NCBI GenBank assembly: GCA_902611845.1
Contig: CACMAX010000005.1
Span: forward strand, 1 to 64,000
Origin: an uncultured Pelagibacteraceae bacterium
GTDB taxonomy: Bacteria > Pseudomonadota > Alphaproteobacteria > Pelagibacterales > Pelagibacteraceae
Length of the DNA stretch: 64,000 nucleotides
Direction of reading: 5' to 3'
Shown here: in pieces, positions 13,136 through 63,298 of the stretch
How positions within the stretch are numbered: the first letter of the stretch is position 1
Layout: every line of letters starts with the position of its first letter
Notes under the pieces: model-generated
The model's input: the letters and a program-made list of their open reading frames with translations, nothing else
Databases searched by the model: none
Told to the model about the DNA's origin: nothing
Position numbers and translations under genes: made by a program

Positions 13136-15217
13136 ATGAAAATACCACAGCTTAAAAAAAAACCAGAATTAAAATCTTGTCACAATGTAACCTGGGAAGA
13201 CGATTATAGTTGGATACATCAGGAAAATATACTTGAAGTATTGAAAGATAGTTCAAAATTATTACCAGAGGTGAGAAAATATCTTGAAGATGAAAATGAT
13301 TATTTCAGTTATCAAATGTCAGATACAAAAGAAATTCAAAAAGTTTTATTCGACGAGATTAAAGGAAGAATTAAACTTGATGATGAGTCTCTTCCGTTTA
13401 AGGATGTAAGATATAGTTACTGGACAAAAACAACAACTAGAGGAAATTATTCTATAAAGTTAAGAAAAAAAATTGACTCTGATGAAGTAGAGGAAATTTG
13501 GAATGGCGATTTAGAAAAAGAAAAGCTTAAAACAGAATATTTTGGGCTTGGAGACTTGGAAGTTAGCTATAATGATAAATTACTAGCTTATTCATTAGAT
13601 TTAAAAGGATCTGAATATTATACCATACATATAAGAGATATTAAAAGTCGAGAGCAAGTTGGTGGAAAGATTGAAAATACTAGTGGCGGAATAACATTTA
13701 GCTTAGATGACAAATATATTTTTTACTCAAAGCTTGATGACAATCACAGACCAAGAGAAATTTACAGGCACGAAATTGGAGCTCCTACTAGTAAAGATAT
13801 TCTTATATTTAAAGAAGAAAGTGAAGCATTTACTGTAGGGATAGGACTTAGCTCTGATGAAAAGTATTTTTTTATTACGTCATCTGATCATAATACGTCC
13901 GAACAGTATTATTTTAAAGCAGATGAAATAATTCCAAAACCGAAACTAATTGATAAAAGAAAAAGAGGGATAATATATTCAGTTAATTCATGGAATGGGA
14001 ATTTCTATAAACATACAAATGAGGATGCGGAAGATTTTAAAATTGAAAAAACAACTGATTTAGAAAAAAAAAACTGGGAAACATTTATACCTGCACGAGA
14101 AGAGGTTTTAATTGGTGGATTAATTTTCTTAGATAATTGGATAATTAGATCTGAAACTTCTAATGCATTATCAAAATTAATATTAAGAAATCCAAAAAAT
14201 AATGAAGAAGAAGAAATATTTTTTTCAGATGAAAAAGTTATAGTACCCGGTGTGTCGTTAACCCAAAGAGATAGAAATACTGATACCGTTTATTTATCAT
14301 ATTCATCACCAAAAACTCCTGGAAGGACATACCTATACAATCTTAAAACAAAGGAGAAAAAATTAGTTAAAGAACAAGAGATTCCTAGTGGTCATAATTC
14401 TGATGACTACATAGTTGAAAGATTAGAGTGTGCCTCTCATGACGGAAGAATGGTTCCTATTACAATAACAAGACATAAAAAAACTAAATTAGATGGATCT
14501 GCAAAATTATTATTATATGGATACGGATCATACGGAAGTTCTATGTCACCAAGTTTTTCTTCAACCAGAATAAGTTTAATAGAGCGAGATATTATATGGG
14601 TAACTTCTCATATTAGAGGTGGTATGGAAAAAGGAATGAAATGGTGGAAAGAAGGAAAATTATTAAACAAGAAAAATACATTTGAAGATTACATTGCTTC
14701 TGCAAAATTTTTAATTGAAAAAAAGTTTACGTCTAAAGGTAATATTATTGGAATGGGTGGATCTGCTGGAGGTCTTTTGATGGGAGCCGTTGTTAACCAA
14801 GCTCCTGATTTATTTTTGGGCATTGTTATGGCTGTTCCTTTCGTTGACTCGTTGACTACGAACTTAGACCATTCGTTACCATTAACAGTCGGCGAATTTG
14901 ATGAATTTGGAAATGCTAAAGATAAAAAAGAACACTTTGATTACATATTTTCATATGCACCTTATAACAATATTAAAAAGATGGATTACCCAAACATTTT
15001 GATAACCACAAGTCTAAGTGATAACAGGGTATTATTTGATGAGCCAGCAAAATTTACTGCAAAATTAAGGGATTACAAAACTGATAACAATTTACTTTTA
15101 TTAAAAACAGAAATGAATGCAGGTCATGGAGGAAAATCTGGAAGAGATGGAGCAATTGAGGAGATTGCAGTTGACTACGCGTTCGCTTTGAAAATAGCTG
15201 GAAAATTAAACACTTGA
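13136..15217 (+). CDS. ptrB: Oligopeptidase B (prolyl oligopeptidase family, S9A)
   Basis: The 693-residue protein has an N-terminal beta-propeller (about 70-410) and a C-terminal alpha/beta hydrolase domain. The nucleophile is S543 in 'GMGGSAGGLLMG', preceded by 'HIRGGMEKGMKWWKEGKL' and followed by 'LDHSLPLTVGEFDEFGN' and 'NAGHGGKSGRDG', which carries the catalytic histidine. These blocks fit oligopeptidase B, a cytoplasmic enzyme that cuts short peptides after basic residues. No signal peptide is seen. Length is typical (about 690). Confidence 0.93.
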   Translation: MKIPQLKKKPELKSCHNVTWEDDYSWIHQENILEVLKDSSKLLPEVRKYLEDENDYFSYQMSDTKEIQKVLFDEIKGRIKLDDESLPFKDVRYSYWTKTTTRGNYSIKLRKKIDSDEVEEIWNGDLEKEKLKTEYFGLGDLEVSYNDKLLAYSLDLKGSEYYTIHIRDIKSREQVGGKIENTSGGITFSLDDKYIFYSKLDDNHRPREIYRHEIGAPTSKDILIFKEESEAFTVGIGLSSDEKYFFITSSDHNTSEQYYFKADEIIPKPKLIDKRKRGIIYSVNSWNGNFYKHTNEDAEDFKIEKTTDLEKKNWETFIPAREEVLIGGLIFLDNWIIRSETSNALSKLILRNPKNNEEEEIFFSDEKVIVPGVSLTQRDRNTDTVYLSYSSPKTPGRTYLYNLKTKEKKLVKEQEIPSGHNSDDYIVERLECASHDGRMVPITITRHKKTKLDGSAKLLLYGYGSYGSSMSPSFSSTRISLIERDIIWVTSHIRGGMEKGMKWWKEGKLLNKKNTFEDYIASAKFLIEKKFTSKGNIIGMGGSAGGLLMGAVVNQAPDLFLGIVMAVPFVDSLTTNLDHSLPLTVGEFDEFGNAKDKKEHFDYIFSYAPYNNIKKMDYPNILITTSLSDNRVLFDEPAKFTAKLRDYKTDNNLLLLKTEMNAGHGGKSGRDGAIEEIAVDYAFALKIAGKLNT

Positions 15218-15218
15218 T

Positions 15219-15246
15219 CTTGAAATATCAAAATTAATTACCATAT
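15219..15246 (+). promoter_or_regulatory. Candidate sigma-32 heat-shock promoter for hsp20
   Basis: CTTGAAA at 15219-15225 matches the -35 element of heat-shock sigma factors. TACCATAT at 15239-15246 matches the last six positions of the CCCCATnT -10 element, and the spacer is 13 bp. Transcription would then start near 15253, immediately before the first leader hairpin. The site lies just after the ptrB stop codon. It is a sequence match only, but its position before a small heat-shock gene makes it likely. Confidence 0.6.
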
Positions 15247-15253
15247 AAATTTT

Positions 15254-15305
15254 GTTAGTCGCCTGATGGGGCTAGCGGTAAATAAACTTGCTTAATTAAA
15301 GGAGG
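15254..15305 (+). promoter_or_regulatory. ROSE-like RNA thermometer in hsp20 leader
   Basis: Two hairpins are visible. The first, 15254-15276, pairs GTTAGTC with GGCTAGC plus CC with GG, nine pairs (some G-U) with bulged G61 (15261) and loop TGAT. The second, 15287-15305, pairs CTTGCT with AGGAGG around the loop TAATTAA; it buries the ribosome-binding site AAGGAGG and contains a G opposite G (15290 and 15302). The TTGCT opposite AGGAG arrangement with an internal G-G is the signature of ROSE elements, which open when the temperature rises. The start codon at 15311 follows directly. Confidence 0.65.
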
Positions 15306-15310
15306 ATAAT

Positions 15311-15757
15311 ATGACAAGTAAGGATCTATCAATTTTCAACTCACTTCGGCCTTTCTCAATTGGTTTTGACGATATGTTTGACCAATTCGAAAGCATGTTG
15401 GGCAATGGTGGTTTAAGTATGCAATCAAACTACCCGCCTTACAACATAAGAAGAACTGGCAAAGATAACTACTCAATTGAGGTTGCTTTAGCTGGTTTTA
15501 GCAAAAAAGATGTTGAGGTAGAGTTTGAAGATAATCTATTGACTGTAAGAACTAAAGAAGTTGATAGAAGTGAAAACAAAAACCAAGATGGAGAGATAAT
15601 CCACAAAGGTATATCGCAAAGACAATTTGCGAGATCATTTACAATTGCTGATGATGTAAAAGTGAATGGTGCAGAGTTAAAAGATGGTCTTTTAACAATT
15701 GCATGTGAAAGGATTATCCCGGAACATAAAAAAAAGAAACTTATTGAAATTAAATAA
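15311..15757 (+). CDS. ibpA: Small heat-shock protein, Hsp20/IbpA family
   Basis: The 148-residue holdase binds unfolding proteins and passes them to DnaK/ClpB. Its short N-terminal arm (1-45, with 'FDDMFDQFESML') is typical of class A alphaproteobacterial Hsp20. The alpha-crystallin domain spans about 45-138: 'YNIRRTGKDNYSIEVALAGFSKKDVEVEFEDNLLTVRTKE' and 'RQFARSFTIADDVKVNGAELKDGLLTIACER'. The C-terminal 'IPEHKKKKLIEIK' holds the family's I-x-P-type tail variant. A very strong ribosome-binding site GGAGG (15301-15305) precedes the start and is likely masked at low temperature. Confidence 0.94.
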   Translation: MTSKDLSIFNSLRPFSIGFDDMFDQFESMLGNGGLSMQSNYPPYNIRRTGKDNYSIEVALAGFSKKDVEVEFEDNLLTVRTKEVDRSENKNQDGEIIHKGISQRQFARSFTIADDVKVNGAELKDGLLTIACERIIPEHKKKKLIEIK

Positions 15758-15765
15758 GTACCTTG

Positions 15766-15788
15766 CTTGTGGGGCTAGTCCCCACAAG
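15766..15788. terminator. Perfect 9-bp hairpin between convergent genes
   Basis: CTTGTGGGG (15766-15774) and CCCCACAAG (15780-15788) pair perfectly around the loop CTAGT. It lies between the hsp20 stop and the stop of the convergent lipoprotein gene. There is no run of T on either side, so it is not a classical intrinsic terminator; it may still stop polymerase or protect the mRNA 3' end. It is one of the most GC-rich short stretches in the window. Confidence 0.55.
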
Positions 15789-15789
15789 A

Positions 15790-16122
15790 CTAAATACATC
15801 CACTAGAGCTAAATCCGATAATAACCCCTGATGCATTCACCTCAAATTTTCTTTCACAAGGAATTCCATATTTTTTTGTTTTGTAGATAAGCATTTCATT
15901 TCCAAGTTCATTGACAAAATCTTCTGAAGGTGAGCCTAATTCTAATCTCATCTCATTAACTTCTTTTCCAACGAATTGACCAAATTTTTCATTCTCTTTT
16001 TCAGCCACTTCATCAGATTTCTTTTTAATTGTTTGGCATCCAGTTAAAAAAATTATTGTTAATGTGATAAACAGAGCAATAAATTTTTTTGATAAAGTAT
16101 TATTTTTAAAAGCAATAATCAT
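15790..16122 (-). CDS. Small lipoprotein, SmpA/OmlA-like
   Basis: The 110-residue product has a signal peptide with lipobox 'LTGC' (cysteine near residue 29), so it is a lipoprotein of the inner or outer membrane. After an acidic/lysine-rich linker ('KKKSDEVAEKENEKFGQFVGKEVNEMRLELGSPSED') comes a short fold 'NEMLIYKTKKYGIPCERKFEVNASGVIIGFSSSGC' that resembles the BamE/SmpA-type 'lG.P........Y......C.r.f.vd..G.i'. The two cysteines near the end could form a disulfide. Function is unknown; BamE-like identity is only a suggestion. Confidence 0.65.
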   Translation of the reverse strand: MIIAFKNNTLSKKFIALFITLTIIFLTGCQTIKKKSDEVAEKENEKFGQFVGKEVNEMRLELGSPSEDFVNELGNEMLIYKTKKYGIPCERKFEVNASGVIIGFSSSGCI

Positions 16123-41214: not shown

Positions 41215-41311
41215 GAATCTTATATGGAAACATTCTAAATTATTTCAAGGGTACATTTTTACTTTACATTGGCTCATTTTCAGCATAAATGCTCGTTTTA
41301 TATAAACTTGC

Positions 41312-54655: not shown

Positions 54656-54684
54656 TTGACATATAAATTCCTTTGAAGTAAAAC
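54656..54684 (+). promoter_or_regulatory. Candidate sigma-70 promoter for metX
   Basis: TTGACA at 54656-54661 is a perfect -35 hexamer. A weaker -10 TAAAAC lies at 54679-54684 after a 17-bp spacer. The predicted start, near 54690, falls at the first base of the riboswitch P1 stem (54691), so the RNA would begin with the aptamer. This alignment supports both calls, though neither is tested. Confidence 0.55.
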
Positions 54685-54688
54685 CTGC

Positions 54689-54739
54689 ATGCGCTGATTT
54701 ATACTGAATTGCGAGCGCTATAAAAAAACCGCTAAAATG
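54689..54739 (+). promoter_or_regulatory. SAM-II family riboswitch
   Basis: The leader contains GCGCTGATTTA (54691-54701) then AGCGC (54714-54718), which pairs with GCGCT as P1, an A-rich joining strand, and CCGCTAAAA (54729-54737), the SAM-II 3' pseudoknot strand. The order GCGCTGATTTA ... GAGCGC ... GCTAAAA is the SAM-II (metA-type) consensus; SAM-V shares the core and is the only real alternative. It should lower metX expression when S-adenosylmethionine is plentiful. An eight-T run follows at once (54740-54747). The start codon is 36 bases downstream and I see no clear ribosome-binding site. Confidence 0.82.
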
Positions 54740-54773
54740 TTTTTTTTCTCACAATTCAATCAGTACAATTATT

Positions 54774-55907
54774 ATGAATAAGAATATTGATACAAAAAAA
54801 ATAATTATATCAAATCCCCTTAAATTGGATTGTGGTAAGGAAATTAATAACTTTCCAATAGCATATGAGACATATGGGGAATTAAACAGTGAAAAAAGTA
54901 ATGCAATATTAGTTTTCCATGCTTTGACTGGAGATCAATATGTTTCTGGAAAAAACCCAATAACTAATAAAGATGGTTGGTGGAGTTATGTTGTTGGAGA
55001 AAATAAGCCAATTGATACAAATAAATTTTTTGTGATTTGTGCAAACGTTATTGGAGGCTGCATGGGATCTTACGGACCTAGCACAATAAATGAGTCCACT
55101 GGTAAACAAATAGGAACTGATTTTCCAATTATAACTATTAACGACATGGTTAACGCTCAATATGAGCTAATTAAATATTTAGAAATTGAAAAACTTTTTG
55201 CTGTAGTAGGTGGTTCAATGGGTGGAATGCAAGTACTTCAATTTGTTGCCAATTTTCCAGATAAAGCAAAACTTGCAATACCGATTGCTTGTACATCTAG
55301 TCACTCGGCACAAAACATAGCGTTTAATGAATTAGGAAGACAGGCAATTATGGCTGACAGTAAGTGGGAAAATGGATTTTATAGTAATTACAAATTAAGT
55401 CCTGACAAAGGGTTAGCGGTAGCAAGAATGGCAGCACATATTACTTATCTTTCTGAAAAAGGATTGCAGGAAAAATTTGGAAGAAAATTGCAAGATAGGG
55501 ATAGCCTAAGATATGGATTTGAGGCAGATTTTCAAATTGAGAGTTATCTTCGATACCAAGGATCTGTGTTTGTTGATAGATTTGATGCTAATAGTTATTT
55601 ATATATAACTCGTGCAATGGATTATTTTGACTTATCCAAACAGTACAAAGGAAACTTATCTGATGCATTCAAAGAAACTAAAACAAAATTTTTTGTAATA
55701 TCATTTACATCAGATTGGTTGTATCCAACATCGGAGAATAGAGAAATAGTTATAGCACTAAATTCTATTGGTGCAGATGTCGGATTTGTAGAAATAGAAT
55801 CTGATAAGGGGCATGACTCATTTTTACTCGATGTTCCAAGTTTCCTAAAGACACTTGGCGATTATATTAATTCAACCTACAAAGTTATAAATGAAAGAAG
55901 AATTTAA
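54774..55907 (+). CDS. metX: Homoserine O-acyltransferase MetX
   Basis: The 377-residue alpha/beta-hydrolase acylates homoserine, the first committed step to methionine. The nucleophile S148 is in '[14 protein letters not shown]'; '[29 protein letters not shown]', '[30 protein letters not shown]', '[16 protein letters not shown]' (Asp) and '[10 protein letters not shown]' (His) complete the triad. Whether it uses acetyl- or succinyl-CoA cannot be read safely. Preceded by a SAM-II type leader and followed by metW with a 17-bp overlap. Confidence 0.95.
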
Positions 55908-61817: not shown

Positions 61818-62168
61818 ATGGAAAAAATATCAGCTCTTAAAGATGAAATAATCAAAACGCTTGATATTAATAAAGCCTTAGACATAGTTTCAATAGATCT
61901 CGAAGGAAAATCATCAGTTGCGGACTTCATGATTATAGCTAGTGGTACATCATCAAGACATATTCAAGCATTATCTGAACAAGTTTTTGAAAAATTAAAA
62001 ATTAATGGTGTGAATAATTGTAAGATTGAAGGAAAAGATAGCAATGATTGGAAGCTTGTAGATGGAATAGACTTAATAGTTCATATTTTTAATCCTGAAA
62101 AAAGAAAATTTTACGAATTAGAAAAAATGTGGTCAGAATTAATTCCTAAAGAAAAACTGATCATATGA
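61818..62168 (+). CDS. rsfS: Ribosomal silencing factor RsfS
   Basis: The 116-residue factor binds bL14 and blocks subunit joining during starvation. The family core 'ALDIVSIDLEGKSSVADFMIIASGTSSRHIQALSEQVFEKLKINGVNNCKIEGKDSNDWKLVDGIDLIVHIFNPEKRKFYELEKMW' is complete. It follows nadD as in most bacteria. Its last four bases overlap the start of ctpA (ATGA), so rlmH, which usually comes next, is absent here. Confidence 0.96.
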   Translation: MEKISALKDEIIKTLDINKALDIVSIDLEGKSSVADFMIIASGTSSRHIQALSEQVFEKLKINGVNNCKIEGKDSNDWKLVDGIDLIVHIFNPEKRKFYELEKMWSELIPKEKLII

Positions 62169-63298
62169 AAAGATTATACTTAATAACTTCTTTATTTTTT
62201 TTCATATTTACAAATCCAATTTTGAGTAATGAAAACGATATTTACAAAAAAATTGATTTATTCAGTGAAGTCTTAGATAAAATTAATAAAGAATATGTTG
62301 ATGAAGTAAATCAGAGTGAAGCAATGGATGCTGCTATAAACGGTGTTTTGCAATCTTTGGATCCCTATTCAGCATATATGTCACCAGACTCGTTTAAAAA
62401 TATGCAAACTGAGACTAGCGGAGAATTTGGAGGATTGGGCATTGAAGTCAGTATGGAGGCTGGTGTCGTAAAAGTAATTTCTCCAATTGATAACTCGCCA
62501 GCTGAGGAGGTTGGTGTCAAAGCCGGAGATTACATCGTTAAAATTGATGATGTTCAAGTTCAAGGAAAAACTCTTTCTGAAGCAGTAGAATTAATGAGAG
62601 GCCCAGTTGGATCTGATATAGAGATTACTGTTAGAAGAAGAGGAGAAAGAAAAGCACTTATATTTACAATTACAAGAGAAATTATACAAGTTGCATCTGT
62701 AAAGTCAGAAATTAAAGATGATCAAACAGCTTATATAAGATTAACATCATTCAATGAGAATAGTAGTAAACAAATAAAAAATAAAATCAAAGAATTTAAA
62801 AAAAATAAGAAAATTAAAAATTACATATTAGATTTAAGAAATAATCCTGGTGGATTGTTATCTCAAGCAATAAAAATTTCAGATTATTTTTTAGAAAATG
62901 GAGAAATAGTTTCTACAAAAAGTAAAAGAAAGTATGAAAATAGAAAATGGTTTGCAAAAAAAGGAGACATTATTGATGGAGAAACGATGGTTATTTTGAT
63001 TAATTATGGGTCTGCATCAGCATCTGAAATTGTTGCAGGAGCACTACAAGATCACAAAAGAGCGATATTAGTAGGAGAGAGTACATATGGAAAAGGGTCA
63101 GTCCAATCAATTATTCCTTTAGAAAATGAAGGTGCCATAAGACTTACTGTTTCTAAATACTATCTCCCATCGGGTAAATCGATTTCAAGAGTAGGTGTAA
63201 ATCCAGATATAGTTATTGCTGAAGGTTCAGATGAATTTAGAATAAATACAGATACTGATAACCAGTTGGAATTTGCTCTTAAATTATTAAATGGTTAA
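62165..63298 (+). CDS. ctpA: C-terminal processing protease, S41 family
   Basis: The 377-residue periplasmic protease has a signal peptide (about 1-21), a PDZ domain (about 85-170: 'GEFGGLGIEVSMEAGVVKVISPIDNSPAEEVGVKAGDYIVKIDD') and the S41 catalytic core with the serine in 'INYGSASASEIVAGALQDHKRA' and the lysine in 'GESTYGKGSVQSIIPL'. CtpA-type enzymes trim exported proteins and peptidoglycan hydrolases at their C-termini. It is downstream of rsfS with a four-base overlap and two bases from rppH. Confidence 0.95.
   Translation: MKRLYLITSLFFFIFTNPILSNENDIYKKIDLFSEVLDKINKEYVDEVNQSEAMDAAINGVLQSLDPYSAYMSPDSFKNMQTETSGEFGGLGIEVSMEAGVVKVISPIDNSPAEEVGVKAGDYIVKIDDVQVQGKTLSEAVELMRGPVGSDIEITVRRRGERKALIFTITREIIQVASVKSEIKDDQTAYIRLTSFNENSSKQIKNKIKEFKKNKKIKNYILDLRNNPGGLLSQAIKISDYFLENGEIVSTKSKRKYENRKWFAKKGDIIDGETMVILINYGSASASEIVAGALQDHKRAILVGESTYGKGSVQSIIPLENEGAIRLTVSKYYLPSGKSISRVGVNPDIVIAEGSDEFRINTDTDNQLEFALKLLNG

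Follow-up and report, generated by a model that had tools for sequence, protein, structure and literature searches.

The hsp20 gene in the window, by which we mean the whole 64,000-nucleotide stretch of DNA analysed here from an uncultured Pelagibacteraceae bacterium, is preceded by a leader that is probably a short, divergent RNA thermometer of ROSE-like type, transcribed from a sigma-32-type promoter; that it senses temperature is what we infer from its sequence. Comparison of related leaders suggests that this ROSE-like element is conserved in both SAR11 families examined and recognisable in a few other alphaproteobacteria. The proposed leader is about 60 bases long. It would begin, behind conserved promoter-like boxes, at the base of the stable hairpin I and continue into a weak hairpin II, in which a UYGCU strand lies across from the Shine-Dalgarno (SD) sequence, a single G being either unpaired or matched with another G. 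At low temperature, hairpin II would block the ribosome-binding site; on warming, RpoH would raise transcription and hairpin II would loosen, so that Hsp20 would be made. In most Pelagibacteraceae, the anti-SD strand would have a second partner in codons 2-4, and the switch would thereby extend into the gene.

The hsp20 open reading frame (ORF) listed for the window spans 15311-15757 on the forward strand (148 aa, ATG at 15311). Its product matches the Pfam HSP20 family (PF00011) with 64.4 bits against a cut-off of 20.8, the single match in the whole genome (1.26 Mb, 91.67% complete), and its nearest named relatives come from uncultured Pelagibacteraceae, SAR11; relatives of the protein were found in 134 of 148 genomes of the order. 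The upstream ORF ends at 15217, and the 93-base gap to hsp20 is wholly taken up by promoter and leader, with the small heat-shock gene directly 3' of the leader as expected of ROSE-like thermometers. Just 3' of hsp20 lies a strong, terminator-like hairpin (15765-15790, forward strand); the interval 15758-15800 folds with -16.5 kcal/mol (z -3.78), a value that none of 200 shuffles reached. For the comparison we parsed 169 leaders of the window's family (f1; 140 unique over positions -62 to +30), made up of the window's own, 79 of the 80 loci from a search for relatives (L069 was too short), 29 loci from genomes of the order and 60 further stretches, some of which may be one genome taken from two sources. 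A second SAR11 family (f2) contributed 20 leaders, and a non-redundant set comprises 49 f1 leaders, none at least 88% identical to another. Motif counts are those of anchored parsing; a MAFFT alignment (A1) put the SD hairpins out of register.

The earlier note had read a heat-shock promoter before hsp20 from CTTGAAA (15219-15225), 13 bases and TACCATAT (15239-15246). These elements are present at those positions and can equivalently be written as a -35-like box CTTGAA (15219-15224) and a -10-like box CCATAT (15241-15246), 16 bases apart on the forward strand. The -35-like box reads CTTGAA in 148 of the 169 f1 leaders and ATTGAA in 19, and is absent from two (L127 and L128, both of genus g3). 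Among the 167 leaders that have it, 159 match YYAHAT at all six positions at the 16-base spacing, and 7 bases separate the end of the -10-like box from hairpin I in 152 f1 leaders, a spacing that would place transcription initiation at the base of hairpin I. The window's genome also encodes RpoH (354.6 bits; cut-off 323.1), which, together with the CTTGAA and -10-like boxes, points to membership of hsp20 in a sigma-32 regulon. Genome-wide, the pattern CTTGAA N12-18 CYAYAT gave 8 matches versus 7 for the reversed pattern and is thus not enriched; the promoter claim therefore rests on the conserved position and on RpoH. With the boxes kept in place and rpoH present, comparison supports the putative heat-shock promoter well. 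The same promoter pattern as that of hsp20 also occurs at 41222-41249 of the window (reverse strand), where it may be a chance occurrence, 7 bases before the ORF MPEAEVLKKITEFEDKSLLIVDDD, presumably that of a response regulator. Elsewhere in the genome, at locus L210 (G000:C2:179999-180027, forward strand), CTTGAAAAATTTAAAATTTATTACTATAT stands a few bases 5' of a protein start, MEFNRDNILNRS, which we take to resemble Bax-inhibitor-1/YbhL proteins; this gene is a possible further RpoH target.

Hairpin I (15254-15276, forward strand) was recovered with the nine pairs originally attributed to it: a 7-bp stem, a bulged G (G15261), two C-G pairs (CC/GG) and a tetraloop. Its conservation was assessed in a gapless 23-base set (A2) of 44 leaders (35 distinct), from which five of the 49 were left out, L125, L128 and L160 having another loop length and L052 and L080 having been parsed at the wrong place. 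In this set 97.1% of cells are paired, against a mean of 87.8% in shuffles (0 of 500 as high) and 25-60% when the partner strand is slid. Two-sided changes occur in six of the nine pairs, a number reached in 1 of 500 shuffles, and the covariation score exceeds all 500 shuffles. In genus g2, the apical CC/GG is replaced by CU/AG. Covariation and folding thus agree on a stable upstream hairpin of the kind found in ROSE-like elements, and its stem, bulged G, CC/GG and loop correspond to the layout of the Rfam model ROSE_3.

In the 3'-proximal hairpin II, the anti-SD strand CUUGCUU (15287-15293, forward strand), which contains the ROSE motif U(U/C)GCU, faces its first partner, the SD sequence AAGGAGG (15299-15305, forward strand); CTTGCT (15287-15292) and AGGAGG (15300-15305) are able to pair, as the earlier note had claimed. 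The motif strand reads CTTGCT in 167 and CTCGCT in two f1 leaders, so that U(U/C)GCU is kept in 169 of 169, with the first C of CUYGCU invariant, and the SD sequence is AAGGAG in 168 leaders and ATGGAG in one. All 20 f2 leaders have TCGCT and 19 of them AAGGAG, the remaining one having TAGGAG. Orthologous leaders thus keep the TTGCT/AGGAG pairing, and the strand is so nearly constant that covariation cannot show in hairpin II. The proposed placement of G opposite G held in part: the energy model predicts it for the window, but in this register the outer pair cannot form in 22 of the 169 leaders, and the two leaders with CUCGCU also count against it as the general form. A register with a bulged G (CUY-G-CU with AG-GAG) appears more general, because it is independent of the base after AAGGAG, which is G in 147 leaders and A or T in 11 each. 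ROSE-like elements characteristically have a G facing the SD sequence that is either bulged or paired with another G, and the motif G is present in 169 of 169 leaders. When five f2 leaders were folded, four were predicted to form a longer hairpin that contains an unpaired G and is built around UCGCUU/GAGGA, and the fifth (L134) adopted another fold.

Among Rfam models, ROSE_3 (RF02523) matched the window's leader over its full length with 19.3 bits (E 0.088 in a piece of 321 bases; gathering score 43). This was the lowest E-value of the four Rfam matches in that piece; the unrelated HIV_GSL3 had a slightly higher bit score and a worse E-value. The scan of the whole window gave no ROSE match at E ≤ 10. 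Over 148 genomes of the order, ROSE_3 gave a single match at E ≤ 0.001 (28.3 bits), exactly at an hsp20 leader, and none above the gathering cut-off. In 19 SAR11 genomes searched at E ≤ 10, the ROSE model (RF00435) likewise produced one match, an hsp20 leader (19.7 bits, E 0.77); it reached its gathering score of 45 in none of the 19 and also matched in 3 of 14 control genomes. The corresponding ROSE_3 search returned 33 matches, only the best of them at hsp20, and matches in all 14 controls; the window's own leader is missing from this list though weaker places are on it, and was evidently passed over at the first look. Forty leaders (35 f1, 5 f2), out of 80 in the group that supplied the 60 further stretches, were scanned against 4227 Rfam families. 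ROSE_3 was reported for 11 of them (all f1, 19.6-28.3 bits), always inside the leader and in its orientation; the other 29, among them all five f2 leaders, had no ROSE line at E ≤ 5, and none of the 40 reached an Rfam gathering score. Both models, which the earlier note had proposed to run, thus place their best SAR11 genome match at an hsp20 leader, but below gathering score. The ROSE_3 alignments run from position 1 to 69, cover both hairpins and include the bulged G of hairpin I, an unpaired G in the SD hairpin and the AUGAC start, whereas the SAR11 leaders score 19-28 bits against a gathering score of 43. For RF00435, the classical ROSE elements have three to four hairpins versus two in the window's family. 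Other models matched elsewhere in the window. A weak SAM_alpha (RF00521) match at 54681-54756 (forward strand; 23.7 bits versus 36) lies directly 5' of an ORF at 54774 that we take to be metX-like, and is possibly a divergent SAM riboswitch. A match of the Rickettsia sRNA47 model at 62993-63060 (reverse strand; E 3.7e-4, 30.9 bits versus 60) is probably conserved coding sequence, because it is antisense within the ORF 62165-63298.

Our own model, R1, was built from 14 leaders. In the window's genome, with 25 of 2198 first-look candidates scored, its only reported match at E ≤ 1 was the hsp20 leader (60.1 bits, E 5.5e-15). It matched all 25 f1 leaders presented to it from outside its training set (36-59 bits). 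Among 11 f2 leaders, four (L152, L148, L144 and L134) had matches that lay within the leader but did not rise above noise (8.9-13 bits, E 0.14-2.7). A search of 240 genomes of the class gave matches at E ≤ 1 in 76, and 17 non-SAR11 loci were kept. Four of these lie in an hsp20 leader (L219, L221, L222 and L224) and the other 13 elsewhere, a proportion that is hardly chance. For L219 the E-value is 1e-7, and the best-matching Rfam family is ROSE_3 (28.6 bits); the matches of L221, L222 and L224 are individually weak (E 0.001-0.003), and these leaders had no ROSE line in the Rfam scan. In L224 the match is through hairpin I, which lies 44 bases upstream of the ATG. The leader of L224 (about 1500-1577) combines an f1-like hairpin I (GUUGCCUAAUGGAAC) with an f2-like SD hairpin (UUAACGCUUAAGGAGGUUAA) and is a possible link between the two SAR11 leader forms. 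ROSE_3 itself gave one match at E ≤ 0.001 over 142 genomes of the class, at L207, where tblastn found no hsp20 within the 3 kb examined.

According to the available parts of the literature, ROSE-like elements carry U(U/C)GCU with a bulged G, and the NMR structure of the Bradyrhizobium element contains a G-G pair (PMC11342760). Classical ROSE elements are described as having three to four hairpins, and the ibpA thermometers of Pseudomonas as having two hairpins in 61-62 nt (PMC3669281). In what we could consult of that article, the Pseudomonas ibpA system resembles the SAR11 leader in its two hairpins, a leader of about 60 nt, a sigma-32-controlled small heat-shock gene, a stable first hairpin and a U(U/C)GCU strand facing the SD sequence in the second; base-pairing between the motif strand and codons, as predicted for SAR11, goes unmentioned there (PMC3669281). 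On this basis, the short ROSE-like elements of Pseudomonas appear to be the nearest described design. For SAR11, Stav (2019) mentions 'a possible RNA thermometer' in strain HIMB5, without detail and without naming the gene in the portion available (PMC6429828), which may be an earlier notice of the hsp20 leader. The main text of Meyer (2009) on P. ubique does not mention heat shock, hsp20 or a thermometer (PMC2704228), and we found no other description in the accessible text of SAR11 and Pelagibacter literature on thermometers, ROSE or small heat shock proteins, including PMC2864753, PMC9111926 and PMC4448311.

A putative second partner of the anti-SD strand is the sequence AAGUAAG in codons 2-4 (15316-15322, forward strand), whose codons are almost frozen. 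In a comparison of 17 hsp20 genes less than 95% identical, codons 2, 3, 4 and 32 were the only ones without synonymous change among 106 codons of invariant residues other than M and W. The analysis behind this comparison used 92 of 110 coding sequences, the 18 in reverse orientation having dropped out. All 164 f1 genes starting with MTS (167 such starts including three from f2) have ACA and AGT, followed by AAG in 161, AGG in two and AGA in one; elsewhere in hsp20, Lys is mostly AAA (codon 140 excepted) and Ser mostly TCN. The anti-SD strand can form at least seven contiguous pairs with codons 2-4 in 44 of the 49 non-redundant leaders (the exceptions are L127, L128, L076, L132 and L181), compared with 3.4% of 1424 cases for other leader 10-mers. 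Genus g2 has a different N-terminus, yet anti-SD pairing is predicted over 13 bases in seven of its eight genomes. When the synonymous choices are ordered by pairing strength, the codons actually present come 6th to 8th out of 48 in the eight leaders tested and 10th out of 288 in genus g2, and the stronger-pairing choices listed mostly use AGC. Modelled pairing with codons 2-4 thus seems favoured, though below the maximum. At the start of the outgroup gene at L219, no such complement of the anti-SD strand was seen. We dropped a rule by which Y=C would go with a missing complement on the coding strand (g3 and f2 versus the rest), since L219 has Y=U and no such complement was seen in its start. 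In the window's family, the second partner would be a feature that is new, conserved and unexplained. We tentatively entertain a variant ROSE switch whose anti-SD strand has two mutually exclusive conserved partners, the SD sequence and hsp20 codons 2-4; in such a variant, the coding sequence would serve either as an additional lock on the start region or as a warm-state trap freeing the SD sequence.

Predictions of SD accessibility depend strongly on these codons. We used nearest-neighbour models, which leave out co-transcriptional folding, and as controls the 22 window ORFs of at least 100 aa with an SD-like motif, their start positions being presumed. With the leader cut at +4, warming from 5 to 45 °C increases the mean unpaired fraction of the SD sequence only from 0.19 to 0.30 (controls 0.34 to 0.44); at 25 °C this fraction averages 0.22 over the 49 leaders versus 0.36 in the 22 control genes; the window's own SD sequence is matched or exceeded in closure by 6 of the 22. 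When 22 coding bases are included, the mean rises from 0.56 to 0.71 over the same range (controls 0.33 to 0.42), and the window's SD sequence is predicted to be 0.94 open at 25 °C, with all 22 controls at or below this value, owing to the pairing of the anti-SD strand with codons 2-4. Pairing with the coding sequence exceeds that with the SD sequence in 38, 39, 44 and 44 of 49 leaders at 5, 15, 25 and 35 °C, respectively. The mean energy for opening the ribosome footprint is 10.3 kcal/mol at 25 °C versus 11.5 in controls, and thus not above them. In the energy model, then, the SD sequence is masked if the leader ends at +4 and mostly open with 22 coding bases. Folding of the leader, suggested as a check, yields the G-G form of hairpin II for the window, and a mostly open SD sequence once coding bases are included; the idea that accessibility or footprint energy single out hsp20 as masked fails against the 22 window genes once codons are included. 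The model neither proves nor refutes a thermometer, and its predictions speak against SD masking as the sole resting state. The claim of dual control, by a heat-shock sigma factor and by RNA melting, is therefore qualified: the sequence comparisons support ROSE-like identity and promoter well, but the SD sequence is predicted to be 94% open with codons.

These predictions also bear on the reading that the leader is not a temperature sensor. Hairpin I would then protect the 5' end of the mRNA, the strong SD sequence would give high translation, and sigma-32 would be the sole temperature control; the promoter by itself could explain heat induction, and both the open SD sequence and the control-like footprint energy would fit. 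We nevertheless regard this as unlikely, as it leaves unexplained the invariant CUYGCU strand, the ROSE_3 matches and non-SAR11 hsp20 leaders, and the frozen codons 2-4. It is quite improbable that a protein or small RNA binds the leader instead, for example Hsp20 in autocontrol, and that conservation of the leader reflects this binding site: the GCC and U-GG of hairpin I are indeed kept as sequence, beyond pairing, and the frozen codons could belong to such a site, but the facing UYGCU and SD strands and the ROSE layout are explicable without a ligand. It is highly improbable that both hairpins are products of chance in an AT-rich spacer, given a motif kept in 169 leaders and a hairpin I covariation that exceeds shuffles and slides, even though the 91-nt leader has an ordinary folding energy (z -0.27), which was dropped as evidence for an element.

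SAR11 bacteria are among the most abundant marine cell types and have few regulators. If the ROSE-like thermometer before hsp20 is real, it would be a conserved thermometer missed by Rfam thresholds, and direct RNA temperature sensing would have survived strong genome reduction. The frozen codons ACA AGU AAG would, if the two-partner switch is true, be its signature, and they offer a testable twist on how ROSE elements may work. The leader would provide one defined RNA for asking at what temperature ocean bacteria start their heat response.
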